This document shows, in pieces, positions 32,933-37,924 of a DNA stretch of 64,000 nt. The stretch comes from Monoglobus pectinilyticus. GTDB taxonomy: Bacteria > Bacillota > Clostridia > Monoglobales > Monoglobaceae. Every line of letters begins with the position of its first letter. Position 1 is the first letter of the stretch. The notes beneath the pieces were generated by a model, which was not told where the DNA came from, did not search any database, and saw only the letters and a program-made list of their open reading frames with translations. A program made the position numbers and the translations under genes. The stretch covers positions 2,518,451 to 2,582,450 of the forward strand of contig NZ_CP020991.1 in the NCBI RefSeq assembly GCF_002874775.1, in the 5' to 3' direction.

Positions 32933-33550
32933 CTATTCAAAACTTTGAATAAAGTCACGAAAATTATAATATACTGCTTTTTCAAGAAATGTTATAGAAT
33001 GATTATGATTAAAACTCTTTAGATGTATAAGCTTTTTTTCTGATTCTTCATTATCAAGCCCTGTAACCTCCATAAGTTTTTTCTGAGTATTAATGTTTGT
33101 ATCATACAAAACGCAGTCGGGCGCCAGTAAGGTTGAGGCAAAAATGTTAGCGAACATTTCCAGGTCGCTTGGCTCAGCTTTATCGCTGCGGTTCCAAACT
33201 GTGACGCCGTCCATACATGCTAAATTTTCTGTTTCAAGGTGCCCCATAGCTATATGTCCAAGTTCATGCGAAATTGTTAAATGACGTCTTTCTGTTTTAT
33301 CGGAATTAAAAAAAGTATAATATGAATCATTGATTATTGCTGTAAAACCGTCGTTAATCATAAAATTTTCAAGACGCAGGCTAACTATTAAATTTTCAAA
33401 TATTTTATAGCTGCCGAGCCGAACTTTCATTAAACTGCAAAGTCGTGATATATTGATAGGCAGTTTAGAAATTTTATAACGGTATAAAATTTCAAGAGCT
33501 TTTTGATATGCAGTTCTTTTATTATCATAATAATCAAAGTATTTTTCCAC
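32933..33550 (-). CDS. ImmA/IrrE-family metallopeptidase (second)
   Basis: Protein of about 205 aa with the zinc motif HELGHIAMGHLE near 95-105 and a downstream acidic motif (LEMFANIFASTLLAP) that supplies the third ligand in the family. Such proteases cleave the repressor of an integrative element or phage, or a regulator such as DdrO/HdiR. The start is probably the GTG at 33550, six bases after GAGGTG, rather than the upstream TTG. It is the last gene of an operon with a repressor and another ImmA-like protein. Confidence 0.85.
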   Translation of the reverse strand: MEKYFDYYDNKRTAYQKALEILYRYKISKLPINISRLCSLMKVRLGSYKIFENLIVSLRLENFMINDGFTAIINDSYYTFFNSDKTERRHLTISHELGHIAMGHLETENLACMDGVTVWNRSDKAEPSDLEMFANIFASTLLAPDCVLYDTNINTQKKLMEVTGLDNEESEKKLIHLKSFNHNHSITFLEKAVYYNFRDFIQSFE

Positions 33551-33619
33551 TGATAACACCTCATAGGTTATTATCAGCTTTCATACATTAATTATTACTT
33601 TGTTTAAGGATTTAAAGTA

Positions 33620-34285
33620 TTAAAATTTTTCAGGTGATATAAATTCTTGTATAGATTCTGTCTGCCAGTTAGTTTTAAGGCGGCTGACAAAAGGTGAAAA
33701 TTGTTCGCGAACTTTTATTTCCAGCGGCTGTTTATAAAACATATTCCGTTTGTATAATTCTTCAATCCGCTGAGCGCGTTTTTCTGCATAAATATATGGC
33801 AGACGGCACACTTCCATAATTTCTTCAGGAGTGTGGAGGTTAAGTTCTTTAAGAACGCATGCGGGAGACATTATGCGGATTGCAAACATATCCGCTTCTT
33901 TTTCAAGCTGGGAATTCATATTCTTTTTGTTTGTGTAAAGAATTTTACCGTTATTGCTTTCAATCCTCGTTTTATGCCCCAATAAGATATGTGCAAGCTC
34001 GTGAAGAATAACAAAATTTATATTTGCATACGAACGGTAATCGTTTTTGTAAAATATAAACCAGTTTTTGTCGAATAACATACAAAAACCCTCTTCATCA
34101 ACAGTTCGTCCTTGCTGACCGATTATTGAGATTATCTCCGGAAGTTCTTCGTATGACTTAATTTGTATGTTTAGCTGTTCGCAGATTTTAAAAACATCAA
34201 TTGGCAGCTCGCATATATTGAAGTCAATCAGAAACTTCCATGAAGCATTACGAACATTTCTGTATAGACCATAAGAATTATTCAT
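33620..34285 (-). CDS. ImmA/IrrE-family metallopeptidase (first)
   Basis: Protein of about 222 aa with HELAHILLGHKT near 105-115 and the acidic LEKEADMFAIRIMSPA motif near 140. Its ATG (34285) overlaps the stop of the upstream XRE repressor gene by 8 nt, the arrangement of immR-immA in integrative elements. By analogy it should cleave and inactivate that repressor on a DNA-damage or quorum cue. The reading frame is open further upstream (34309), but that would overlap the repressor more deeply. Confidence 0.87.
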   Translation of the reverse strand: MNNSYGLYRNVRNASWKFLIDFNICELPIDVFKICEQLNIQIKSYEELPEIISIIGQQGRTVDEEGFCMLFDKNWFIFYKNDYRSYANINFVILHELAHILLGHKTRIESNNGKILYTNKKNMNSQLEKEADMFAIRIMSPACVLKELNLHTPEEIMEVCRLPYIYAEKRAQRIEELYKRNMFYKQPLEIKVREQFSPFVSRLKTNWQTESIQEFISPEKF

Positions 34286-34640
34286 TTTTTGCACCGTCAT
34301 TTTTGTCAAACTGTTCAGGCATAGCCAGTCTCAGCATTTCTCTGACTCTTTGCAGCTGTTCGGAAGTCAGGTCGATTTTTTCATTGTTTCCTTCAAAGCT
34401 GAATATTAATCCGTTGTCATTTTTTGACTCGGAAGACTCAGAGGCGGGAGGTTCTGACTTTCCAAGCAGATAATCGGTAGTGACGTTAAAATACTCCGCA
34501 AGTCTTTTTATATTATCTAAATTAGGTTCGGTATTTCCATTTTCATATTTGACATAAGTTGTTCTGTCGACACCAAGAAAATCGGCGACTTCCTTCTGTG
34601 TTTTCTTCATAGAAATTCTCAATTCTTTTAACACGGTCAT
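34278..34640 (-). CDS. XRE-family repressor (ImmR/CI-like)
   Basis: Protein of 120 aa. The N-terminal helix-turn-helix spans about 5-58 (LRISMKKTQKEVADFLGVDRTTYVKYENG). A linker follows (PPASESSESKND), then a C-terminal helix region (LTSEQLQRVREMLRLAM), perhaps for oligomerisation or as the protease target. The start is the ATG at 34640, six bases after GAGGTG. It is transcribed away from a smaller XRE gene across a 150-bp region with four operator-like sites, in the manner of a lysogeny switch. Confidence 0.9.
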   Translation of the reverse strand: MTVLKELRISMKKTQKEVADFLGVDRTTYVKYENGNTEPNLDNIKRLAEYFNVTTDYLLGKSEPPASESSESKNDNGLIFSFEGNNEKIDLTSEQLQRVREMLRLAMPEQFDKNDGAKNE

Positions 34641-34658
34641 TTTTATCACCTCTACCCT

Positions 34659-35644: not shown

Positions 35645-35850
35645 ATGTATATTCACGTTTCGCGTGAGATGGTAGTCACCTAACGCGGTGTGCAAGTAAA
35701 TATATCACAACTAAGCAATTTATTATATGACACCTAAGTTAATTATTGGAGTTTATAGTTTGTATAACATTATATGGCTTATATAACATACACTTTTAAA
35801 CAAAAGTGTAGCCACAATTGACACTGTAGATAATGGCAAAACAAGTTATT
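35645..35850. repeat. Rearranged copy of the 340-bp structured repeat
   Basis: 35645-35690 is hairpin 2 plus the CGTTAGGTGA linker in reverse orientation (TTCACGTTTCGCGTGA.. CACCTAACGCG). It is joined to the downstream blocks in forward orientation (ATCACAACTAAG.., TTAATTATTGG.GTTTATAGTTTGTATAAC, ACACTTTTAAACAAAAGTGT). This indicates an inversion or mosaic assembly. Confidence 0.65.
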
Positions 35851-35855
35851 TAGTA

Positions 35856-35882
35856 TCACACCCACCTGAAAGGTGGGGTCAC
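35856..35882. repeat. Palindromic repeat resembling the IS110 target
   Basis: ATCACACCCACCT gaa AGGTGGGGTCAC. The left arm ACACCCACCT is the same 10-mer that lies at the left junction of the adjacent IS110 element (35921-35930). Confidence 0.75.
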
Positions 35883-35954
35883 AGGCCTTGCAGGTTCATC
35901 AATACAAACTACTTTGCATCACACCCACCTCGTATAATAAAGTAGTAGTTAATA

Positions 35955-35984
35955 TTGTTCGATTTTAAGGGCATGTGCTATAAT
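35955..35984 (+). promoter_or_regulatory. Promoter of the IS110 leader RNA
   Basis: TTGTTC (35955-35960), 18-bp spacer, TATAAT (35979-35984) with an extended -10 TG (TGCTATAAT). Confidence 0.75.
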
Positions 35985-35990
35985 GTTATT

Positions 35991-36160
35991 AGATACTGTG
36001 GATTAGTTACACCCACCTACCACTTGATGGTTTCTTGAAGGCTCTAACCACAGTCTCTTTATACATTTGTTAATTAGTTAGATACCGCACGACGGTTTAT
36101 TTAGAACGAGGTTACAATCGTAAAGAGTATCTGTGGTCTAAAAACAGTATCAAATATTTT
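35991..36160 (+). ncRNA. Putative IS110 bridge RNA
   Basis: In IS110-group elements the 5' non-coding region encodes a bridge RNA with a target-binding and a donor-binding loop. Here stem-loop 1 is closed by ACTGTGGATTAG / CTAACCACAGT (35995-36006 / 36044-36054). Its loop holds ACACCCACCT (36009-36018), identical to the left target flank including the CT core. It also holds TGAAG (36036-36040), complementary to core plus right flank CTTCA. Stem-loop 2 is closed by CTCTTTA / TAAAGAG. Its loop holds AGTTAG (36076-36081), identical to the element's right end, and ACGAG (36106-36110), complementary to core plus left end CTCGT. The 5' end follows from the promoter; the 3' end is approximate. Confidence 0.65.
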
Positions 36161-36177
36161 TCAAAGGAGTTTTTAGT

Positions 36178-37350
36178 ATGATTTTTGTTGGTATCGATGT
36201 TGCAAAGGACAAGCACGACTGCTTCATTTGCAATTCTGACGGCGAGGTTTTATTTAATGCTTTTACTATTCAGAACACTATAGAAGGTTTTAATTCTCTT
36301 TATCAAAGAATTGAATCTGTTTCAAAAGATTTTAACAAAGTAAAAGTAGGGCTTGAAGCTACAGGACATTACTCATACAATCTTTTGGGTTATCTTCTTG
36401 ATAAAGGTTTGACTACCTTTGTTATCAATCCATTAAATACCAATCTCTTCAGAAAGTCTCTCAGCCTCAGAAAGACTAAAACGGATAAAATTGATGCCCA
36501 TACAATCGCTATGATGTTAATGTCTAATGTAGACTTAAAGTCCTACTCAGATATATTATATCACAACGAAGAATTAAAGTCACTAACCAGATACAGATTT
36601 TATAAAGTTTCTGAAAGAGCAAAACTCAAAACCACTGTTTCCCGGCTTGTGAACATACTTTTCCCGGAACTTGAAAAACTTGTTCCTTCGCTGCATATAA
36701 AATCTGTCTATACTATGCTTTCAGAGTTCCCGTCAGCCCATCATATTGCAGAAGCCCACTTAACGAAGCTTACAAACCTGCTGCATACTGCATCTAGAGG
36801 CAGATATGGCAAAGATACTGCAATTGGTTTTAGGGAAGCCGCAAAAAACTCAATCGGTTCAGACATGCCAGCAAAATCTCTTGAGCTAAAGCATACCATA
36901 AAGCTAATACAAGAACTTACAGCAGAAATTGAGGAGATAGAAGCAGAAATCAAGCATATTATGGATAACATAAACACGCCTATTCTGTCTATCCCGGGTA
37001 TCAGTTACACAATGGGAGCTATGATAGTAGCAGAAATAGGTGATTTCAGTAAGTTTTCATCTCCTGATAAAATACTTGCGTATTCAGGAATGTCACCATC
37101 AACGTATCAGTCAGGACAAATAACCAATAGCTATTCACACATGGAGAAACGAGGATCGCGTTACCTTCGGTACGCATTATACAATGCAGCAAAATATGTA
37201 TGTCATTGGGATGAAACCTTCAAGAATTATCTAGCAAAAAAGCGAACTGAGGGAAAACATTACAATGTTGCAATATCTCATGCAGTAAAAAAGCTAGTGA
37301 GAGTAATCTATCATTTACAGAAAACGGGTCAGAGTTACCAAGCCGTTTGA
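36178..37350 (+). CDS. IS110-family transposase (DEDD recombinase)
   Basis: Protein of 390 aa, complete. The N-terminal RuvC-like domain has the DEDD acids in GIDVAKDKHD (D6), GLEATGHYS (about 63) and KTDKIDAHTIA (about 105). A coiled-coil linker spans about 230-265 (LIQELTAEIEEIEAEIKHIM). The C-terminal Transposase_20 domain has LSIPGISYTMGAMIVAEIG and YSGMSPSTYQSGQ, the latter carrying the serine nucleophile region, followed by KRGSRYLRYAL. AAAGGAG precedes the ATG. It acts as an RNA-guided recombinase with the bridge RNA encoded just upstream. No defect is visible, so it may be active. Confidence 0.95.
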   Translation: MIFVGIDVAKDKHDCFICNSDGEVLFNAFTIQNTIEGFNSLYQRIESVSKDFNKVKVGLEATGHYSYNLLGYLLDKGLTTFVINPLNTNLFRKSLSLRKTKTDKIDAHTIAMMLMSNVDLKSYSDILYHNEELKSLTRYRFYKVSERAKLKTTVSRLVNILFPELEKLVPSLHIKSVYTMLSEFPSAHHIAEAHLTKLTNLLHTASRGRYGKDTAIGFREAAKNSIGSDMPAKSLELKHTIKLIQELTAEIEEIEAEIKHIMDNINTPILSIPGISYTMGAMIVAEIGDFSKFSSPDKILAYSGMSPSTYQSGQITNSYSHMEKRGSRYLRYALYNAAKYVCHWDETFKNYLAKKRTEGKHYNVAISHAVKKLVRVIYHLQKTGQSYQAV

Positions 37351-37493
37351 GTTTATGTAATACTGTATTTTTAATATTATTTTTTTAAGCAATTTACTAT
37401 TGCTTTATTTGACATACAATTTTCTAGTTTCCTTATTTGACCGAAAAGATTTTAACTTTTTTTATTTTTCTATTGACTTTTAATAGTTAGTCT

Positions 37494-37924
37494 TCAGGTG
37501 GAGTCGCACCCTACTGACGTTCACTAAGACGCCCCTTTATTTTTTATATTGAATTTTAGTTTTACAAAAACAAGTTGCTTTGTATAATACACTTCTTACA
37601 AGTGTGGTAATAGTTACATTTTCGATGATTGTTATATTATATTTTATATAATTTTTTTATTTTATACACCCATAATTTTTTCGTCCAATTTATTGTATCC
37701 TATCCACACCTTTAATTTTTTGTCTAGTTTTCTGTTGAATTTCCAAATTAAATATTATGCCTGTATTAAATGTACACGCAATATAACATAATAAATCTTT
37801 GTTCTTTATATTTTCTTTAATTGAGTTTCTAAACTATAGCATTTTACGTTGTCTATATATTAGTAATTTGATATAATTTATAAATACTACAGAGAAAAAA
37901 ACGGAAAATTTTATCCAATAACTA
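37494..37924. other. AT-rich region between IS110 and the cysE promoter
   Basis: Holds the right half of the IS110 target palindrome (37494-37515) and another ACACTT / AAGTGT-type hairpin near 37590-37607 (ACACTTCTTACAAGTGT). Otherwise no gene. No T-box or cysteine-type leader is seen before cysE. Confidence 0.45.

Follow-up and report, generated by a model that had tools for sequence, protein, structure and literature searches.

An IS110-group insertion sequence of Monoglobus pectinilyticus with a putative two-loop bridge RNA and a candidate competing fold in its leader

Results

The element and its recombinase

The DNA analyzed here (the window, a stretch of 64,000 nucleotides from Monoglobus pectinilyticus) contains at positions 35929-37493 an insertion sequence of 1565 nt, both CT cores included. 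The element and its flanking repeats are arranged as follows.

35857..35882, plus strand: uninterrupted target repeat (CACACCCACCT-GAA-AGGTGGGGTCAC), upstream of the insertion
35921..35930, plus strand: left target ACACCCACCT, including the CT core (35929-35930), common to three copies
35931..36177, plus strand: left non-coding end (LE), starting CGTATAAT; borders from three identical copies
36178..37350, plus strand: IS110 recombinase gene, 390 amino acids; PF01548 and PF02371, NF033542
37351..37491, plus strand: right non-coding end (RE), ending TTGACTTTTAATAGTTAGT; -35-like TTGACT at 37473-37478
37492..37493, plus strand: CT core, right end
37494..37508, plus strand: right half of the interrupted repeat (TCAGGTGGAGTCGCA)

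The left end, which lies upstream of the recombinase gene and includes the predicted two-loop RNA, is long (247 nt, against 141 nt for the right end), as expected for the IS110 group rather than for IS1111. The recombinase has the DEDD RuvC domain PF01548 at its N-terminus and PF02371 at its C-terminus, and it scores 206.5 bits with NF033542, for which the cut-off is 140. Two distinct sequences in the PDB match it at E-values up to 0.01, namely those of ISCro4 and IS621. Judged by motif position and by alignment with ISCro4, the predicted catalytic residues D7, E60, D103, D106, and S312 fall at the expected places, the last having been assigned from sequence through the aligned Y-x-S-G.

Of the 37 other genomes of the family, 36 lack the recombinase at an E-value of 1e-100, and the remaining one, which belongs to the same genus, has a partial match (75%); at 1e-150, none was found in 50 other genomes of the order. 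The host genome, a single contig of 2,757,678 bases, holds three copies of the element: W1 (the window copy), W2 (locus L002), and W3 (locus L003). They are identical from core to core over all 1565 nt, and the sequence outside them differs. Two partial matches in the same genome represent decayed remnants of a related element at separate places, one a left end with another sequence in its target-binding loop (L005) and the other a 3' gene fragment (L004).

The target repeat and the borders of the element

The left border is alike in W1, W2, and W3. Each is preceded by ...TTTGCATCACACCCACCT, and the left target ACACCCACCT, common to all three, lies inside one family of palindromic repeats. Past the core, the right flanks are unlike (TCAGGTGG, TATACAGGTGGGG, and GTAAAGGTGGGG). 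Joined together, the flanks of each copy make up one uninterrupted repeat that has a loop and a right arm of its own and that the element splits exactly at the core. W2 and W3 have in common a longer identical left repeat half, and their left sequences diverge further out.

An empty site would read ACACCCACCT followed directly by TCAGG, TATACAGG, or GTAAAGG. The string CACACCCACCT occurs at eight places in the genome (its reversed control at none). Three of these are left borders of the element, and the other five are uninterrupted repeats with the structure CACACCCACCT-loop-AGGTGGGGTCAC. A looser pattern yields six uninterrupted repeats, one of them (L109) outside the first list. From ACCCACCT through AGGTGGGGTCACACCT, L109 is the predicted empty site of W2; further left the two differ by one base, inside the 10-nt left target (CATACCC in L109, CACACCC in W2). 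The search for empty sites that the first-pass annotation had proposed thus succeeded in part: paralogous repeats show the predicted joined structure, L109 with its one deviating base among them, but none of the eight CACACCCACCT places is the exact empty site of W1 (ACACCCACCTTCAGGTGG). Eleven other genomes of the genus were searched, none of which has the repeat pattern or yielded an orthologous empty site; the DNA to the right of the element has a match of useful length in only two of these 11, mainly in its coding part. The borders, which had been proposed without recourse to inverted repeats, hold good, with the ends placed by paralogous rather than orthologous empty sites.

A putative bridge RNA with four candidate guides

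The leader in the left end is predicted to form two stem-loops. Loop 1 corresponds to the target (about 8 nt and the CT core on the left, up to about 5 nt on the right), and loop 2 corresponds to the element's own ends.

35995..36054, plus strand: target-binding stem-loop of the putative bridge RNA; 4 of 11 outer pairs changed on both sides
36009..36018, plus strand: left target guide ACACCCACCT, identical to the left target
36036..36040, plus strand: right target guide TGAAG, fitting the right flank of the window copy only
36057..36125, plus strand: donor-binding stem-loop of the putative bridge RNA, from the consensus fold
36075..36081, plus strand: left donor guide TAGTTAG, identical to the right end at 37484-37490
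36106..36110, plus strand: right donor guide ACGAG, complementary to the left end; 78 of 79 elements agree

The four string pairs that the first-pass annotation had read here are all present. ACACCCACCT at 35921-35930 recurs over its 10 nt at 36009-36018; TGAAG (36036-36040) is complementary to CTTCA (37492-37496); AGTTAG (36076-36081) is identical to 37485-37490, a match of 7 nt with the preceding T; and ACGAG (36106-36110) is complementary to CTCGT (35929-35933). The left-target match alone is unlikely to be due to chance, because of 8913 10-mers sampled elsewhere in the window only 6 occur in the leader. Singly, the three short matches would be insufficient, and it is the relatives that add force to them.

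For this comparison, 80 relatives were taken with their flanks, the best of 288 and 69-81% identical in protein sequence; together with the three own copies they make 83 elements. A left border was recognized in 79 (the others being L057, L063, L070, and L074), and the target loop could not be parsed in L007, L025, and L062. Among 60 non-redundant elements, defined by a left flank of at least 12 nt and distinct guides, the left guide shares 5.82 of 8 non-core positions with its own left flank and 3.73 with the flanks of other elements, the signal running from -1 to about -8. In 52 of these, the right guide agrees with its own right flank at 3.88 of 5 positions and with other flanks at 2.24, with a signal from +1 to about +5. 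None of 20,000 permutations was as high in either test, the permutations disregarding shared ancestry among the relatives. Loop 1 therefore changes with the target on both sides, as the first-pass annotation had anticipated for homologous elements at other targets.

The donor guides were compared with the element ends. In 78 of 79 elements, the right donor guide is consistent with the dinucleotide that follows the left core (CG in 56, TG in 13, AC in 8, GC in 1), and the exception, L081, would form a G-T wobble. The left donor guide, a match of 6-7 nt here, is short and nearly invariant among elements, and its pairing is for this reason the least tested of the four. By eye, the four elements whose right end reads AGTTAAT, probably a single lineage, all have AGTTAA in the loop.

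The fit of the right target guide in the host's own copies is uneven. Counted on strings, it matches 4 of 5 non-core positions in W1 and 2 of 5 in both W2 and W3, which is about the level of mismatched pairs; W3 is mismatched at +1, where 98% of the 52 elements match. Of the four pairings originally proposed, then, that of the left target is found in all copies, but that of the right target in the window copy only. This would mean that the left guide is sufficient or that W2 and W3 had another origin. The right guide seems to tolerate mismatch here, and it is probably the left target guide that accounts for most of the recognition of the repeat.

Some relatives have unusual flanks. In L059, the left flank holds, 89 nt upstream of LE, a second LE with a partial bridge RNA, which breaks off precisely at the core of its own left target guide. 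An insertion of the element into another element's copy of the guide would leave such a picture, and so would an assembly artefact; the bridge RNA is not resumed in the right flank. In L032, L040, and L044, both the right guide, ATACGAG, and the right flank, CTCGTAT, correspond to the left end found in the main group (CTCGTATAAT). Inspection by eye shows no second element following in these three, whose own left ends read CTACTATTA or CTGCTATTA.

Conservation of the bridge-RNA fold

A consensus of 67 leaders contains two stem-loops with large internal loops, and 7 of its 29 pairs are changed on both sides in at least one sequence. In this alignment, identical sequences were entered once, L007 was removed by hand (deletion), and seven loci lacking a found 3' end (L024, L034-L037, L076, and L078) were left aside. 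In a second alignment of 51 of the 70 distinct leaders, hand-picked to limit its size, 98.6% of cells pair, against 32-47% in slid controls; four of five measures exceed all 500 shuffles, and the fifth (further pair types) was reached by 109 of the 500. Consensus folding of the relatives' leaders thus recovers the two internal loops expected of a bridge RNA. Folded singly, the window RNA (35992-36142) is no better than its shuffles (z -0.16), and the single-sequence minimum-energy fold was dropped as evidence on that account. Rfam yielded no match in the leader at gathering cut-offs.

Between LE and the target loop, the relatives have by eye a hairpin in two forms, of the GAGTCCCTCTCCAAGGACT type or of the CATAGTC...GACTATG type, and sometimes both. 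At L123 (recombinase 66% identical), the target-binding stem-loop is present and no donor-binding loop is seen by eye; a search of the gene's strand at that locus for four donor-guide-like strings found none of them.

Candidate promoters

35933..35938, plus strand: TATAAT, would-be -10 box at the circle junction, 17 nt after the right-end TTGACT (read from the sequence only)
35979..35984, plus strand: internal extended -10-like box (TGCTATAAT); the RNA would start near 35991-35992

Joining the ends gives TTGACT-17-TATAAT, a predicted strong junction promoter. The spacing at the junction is 17 in 62 and 20 in 9 of 71 distinct leaders. A sigma-70 scan of 35850-37600 called 11 promoter-like sites (6.2 in shuffles), none of them a plus-strand site within the leader. 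The internal TATAAT (35979-35984) has a weak TTGTTC 18 nt upstream and no convincing -35 box. By a lenient list of eight hexamers, applied without a control, a -10-like hexamer lies 6-7 nt before GATAC in all 71 distinct leaders, and TG precedes it in 36. The claim that the leader has its own promoter is not confirmed in that form: what the leader has is a conserved -10-like box, and the sigma-70 scan called no promoter there. Because insertion splits the junction promoter, either this internal box or an outside host promoter would have to drive the RNA in the inserted element.

A competing fold in the leader

Four segments of the leader can pair in more than one way.

35992..35998, plus strand: segment 1, GATACTG; may pair in the target-loop stem or with segment 4
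36048..36053, plus strand: segment 2, CCACAG; 3' arm of the target-binding stem
36131..36136, plus strand: segment 3, CTGTGG; alternative partner of segment 2, with 92.5% of cells paired
36145..36151, plus strand: segment 4, CAGTATC; partner of segment 1, 11 nt before AAAGGAG (36163-36169)

Segment 1 comprises the first 7 nt of the predicted RNA. In the helix of segments 1 and 4 (1:4), 99.7% of 357 cells are paired. Paired cells, cells changed on both sides (15), and the covariation score are all above every one of 500 shuffles; the number of pairs changed on both sides (2, reached by 80 of 500) and of pair types (8, reached by 143 of 500) is not beyond them. The helix of segments 2 and 3 (2:3) shows no covariation at its 92.5% pairing. 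Part of the covariation of segment 1 could serve either fold, because this segment also pairs within the target stem.

For the full W1 leader, the form with 1:4 and 2:3 is predicted at -38.3 kcal/mol and that with the target stem forced at -33.3 kcal/mol; in an RNA cut before segment 3, the target stem has a probability of 0.85-1.0 per pair. We scored 69 of 70 leaders (L025 was dropped) by the best pair of each helix. At a probability of at least 0.5, the full-length RNA is predicted to form 1:4 in 60, 2:3 in 58, and the target stem in 8 of the 69, and the target stem is formed in all 69 when the RNA is cut before segment 3 and in 48 when it is cut before segment 4.

More distant relatives were drawn from 28 new loci (L114-L141), 25 of which were read; L126, L130, and L132, matches without a gene start, were omitted. 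Nineteen of the 25 entered a test of segment 1 against its own tail and those of others, from which L117 (no leader start), L123 (no donor loop and no segments 3 and 4), and, by choice, L120, L122, L134, and L141 were excluded; the parsing rule gave L133 a longer tail than the others. Segment 1 pairs with its own tail at a mean of -12.1 kcal/mol and with other tails at -8.9 kcal/mol, and the 13 leaders whose recombinases are 40-55% identical give -12.1 and -9.0 kcal/mol, with 0 of 20,000 permutations as extreme for both the 19 and the 13. The competing fold thus has the support of covariation down to recombinases of about 40% identity, and in the full leader it would dismantle the target loop. 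The lack of a donor loop and of segments 3 and 4 in L123 counts against its generality. A hairpin covering the ribosome site of W1 in the guide fold was also considered and dropped, since it is not conserved by eye.

What the relatives target

Read on the other strand, the left flanks of many relatives present a Shine-Dalgarno-like site followed by a start codon. In 66 relatives with a left flank of at least 450 nt, an ATG 8-18 nt from the core that opens a reading frame of at least 50 amino acids is found in 43, compared with 135 of 1518 control positions taken from deeper in those flanks; with ATG, GTG, or TTG in the same window, the counts are 47 of 66 and 267 of 1518. These limits were set post hoc, after misses in a first test (start codon at 3-13 nt, frame of at least 60 amino acids, own copies included; 34 of 69 versus 221 of 1380), and the test, unlike its control, also took short frames running off the contig. 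By eye, several more distant relatives have similar flanks. The left guide of the ribosome-site elements often ends CTCCT. The guide of the window element reads ACACCCACCT, and its location is a palindromic repeat rather than a ribosome-binding site.

Discussion

The evidence gathered here leaves us very nearly certain that, as far as sequence can tell, the window holds an intact IS110-group insertion sequence with a two-loop bridge RNA carrying guides to its target and to its own ends. The first-pass annotation had offered this reading from the window alone, and comparison with relatives supports it. Following the mechanism published for IS621 and ISEc21, the recombinase would excise the element as a circle; end joining would create TTGACT-17-TATAAT, from which the bridge RNA would be transcribed; the RNA would pair with the repeat and with the circle junction, and the recombinase would exchange strands at CT.

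Could the identity between loop 1 and the left flank instead be a leftover duplication or a chance event, with the leader no more than a 5' untranslated region that has structure? In favour of such an account are the small size of three of the four matches (5-7 nt), the failure of the single-sequence fold to rise above shuffles, and the prediction of another fold for the full leader. Yet loop 1 tracks both flanks (0 of 20,000 permutations each), fading at about -8 and +5, and the right donor guide agrees in 78 of 79 elements. On the permutations, this agreement, and the 10-mer control, we rejected a chance origin of the matches, and we find the account as a whole scarcely credible. A spread of the copies by homologous recombination between repeats, with left flanks identical through copying of flank and element together, deserves more weight, though we still deem it improbable. 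The identity of the three copies, the longer left repeat half that W2 and W3 have in common, and the misfit of the right guide in both speak for such a route, but joining the flanks of any one copy restores a single repeat, complete with a separate loop and right arm and split exactly at the core, and the left sequence is unlike further out. Moreover, guide-target agreement in the relatives favours insertion guided by the bridge RNA as the normal route.

The element is of a known IS110 type, and the competing fold is the newest part of the finding. We suggest that the leader may have two states. A short RNA ending before 36131 would be the bridge RNA; a longer one, extending into the transposase gene, would form 1:4 and 2:3, with the target loop open and the ribosome site free, such that one molecule would serve as guide or as messenger leader and not as both, across this IS110 branch. 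This proposal is tentative, and we rate it somewhat short of an even chance. Keeping guide and message apart is the function that the modelled fold suggests; were the fold real, it would explain the separation of the guide RNA from the transposase message. A literature search from 2024 on for bridge RNA, transposase mRNA, and leader found no paper.

Among known systems, IS621 of E. coli is similar in its IS110 grouping, its left-end RNA with a target loop followed by a donor loop, its CT core, its circle-junction promoter, and its insertion into repetitive extragenic palindromes (PMC11208160 and PMC11208158, in part). The guides, host, and repeat of the present element are unlike those of IS621, and its right guide is poorly matched in two copies. 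No alternative fold like GATACTG/CAGTATC is described in the portion of the IS621 account drawn on here (PMC11208160). ISEc21 and ISMch6 are likewise of IS110 type with an upstream RNA, and ISMch6 is a case of natural redirection through changed guide bases (PMC11187229, in part); here, by contrast, redirection extends across dozens of relatives, from ribosome-binding sites to a repeat. ISPpu9 of Pseudomonas putida, counted in the IS110 family (PMC11208160, in part), also resides in repetitive extragenic palindromes, and the structure of its 5' leader sets translation of the transposase (PMC8450116, in part). That system employs an antisense RNA and a second small RNA (PMC8450116, in part), whereas the fold proposed here competes within the bridge-RNA leader itself.

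IS900 of Mycobacterium avium subsp. paratuberculosis also belongs to the IS110 family. According to the title of a 1997 paper, listed among the references of PMC8141618, it reportedly targets translation initiation signals. In the present group, the relatives have a guide segment that matches a ribosome-binding site, and the window element targets none. Ribosome-site guides were not encountered in the titles and opening lines of the literature on IS110 with Shine-Dalgarno sites or bridge RNA, a scope that leaves their absence unproven, and the part of an M. avium genome paper drawn on here (PMC7823733) has nothing on target sites.

The locus illustrates that raw sequence can be enough to recognize an IS110 bridge RNA, with covariation as a subsequent check. 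The relatives form a natural series of reprogrammed guides, many of them at ribosome-binding sites and the window element at a dispersed palindrome, a series that makes natural redirection and the weight of the right guide testable. These guide changes and the leader switch are the points of specialist interest.

Elsewhere in the window, a bacterial RNase P RNA of class A lies on the minus strand at 2187-2524. Two consecutive open reading frames on the minus strand at 32933-34649 have a HELGH/HELAH-type motif, which we take to be that of a metallopeptidase, and they adjoin what is presumably an XRE-like regulator.
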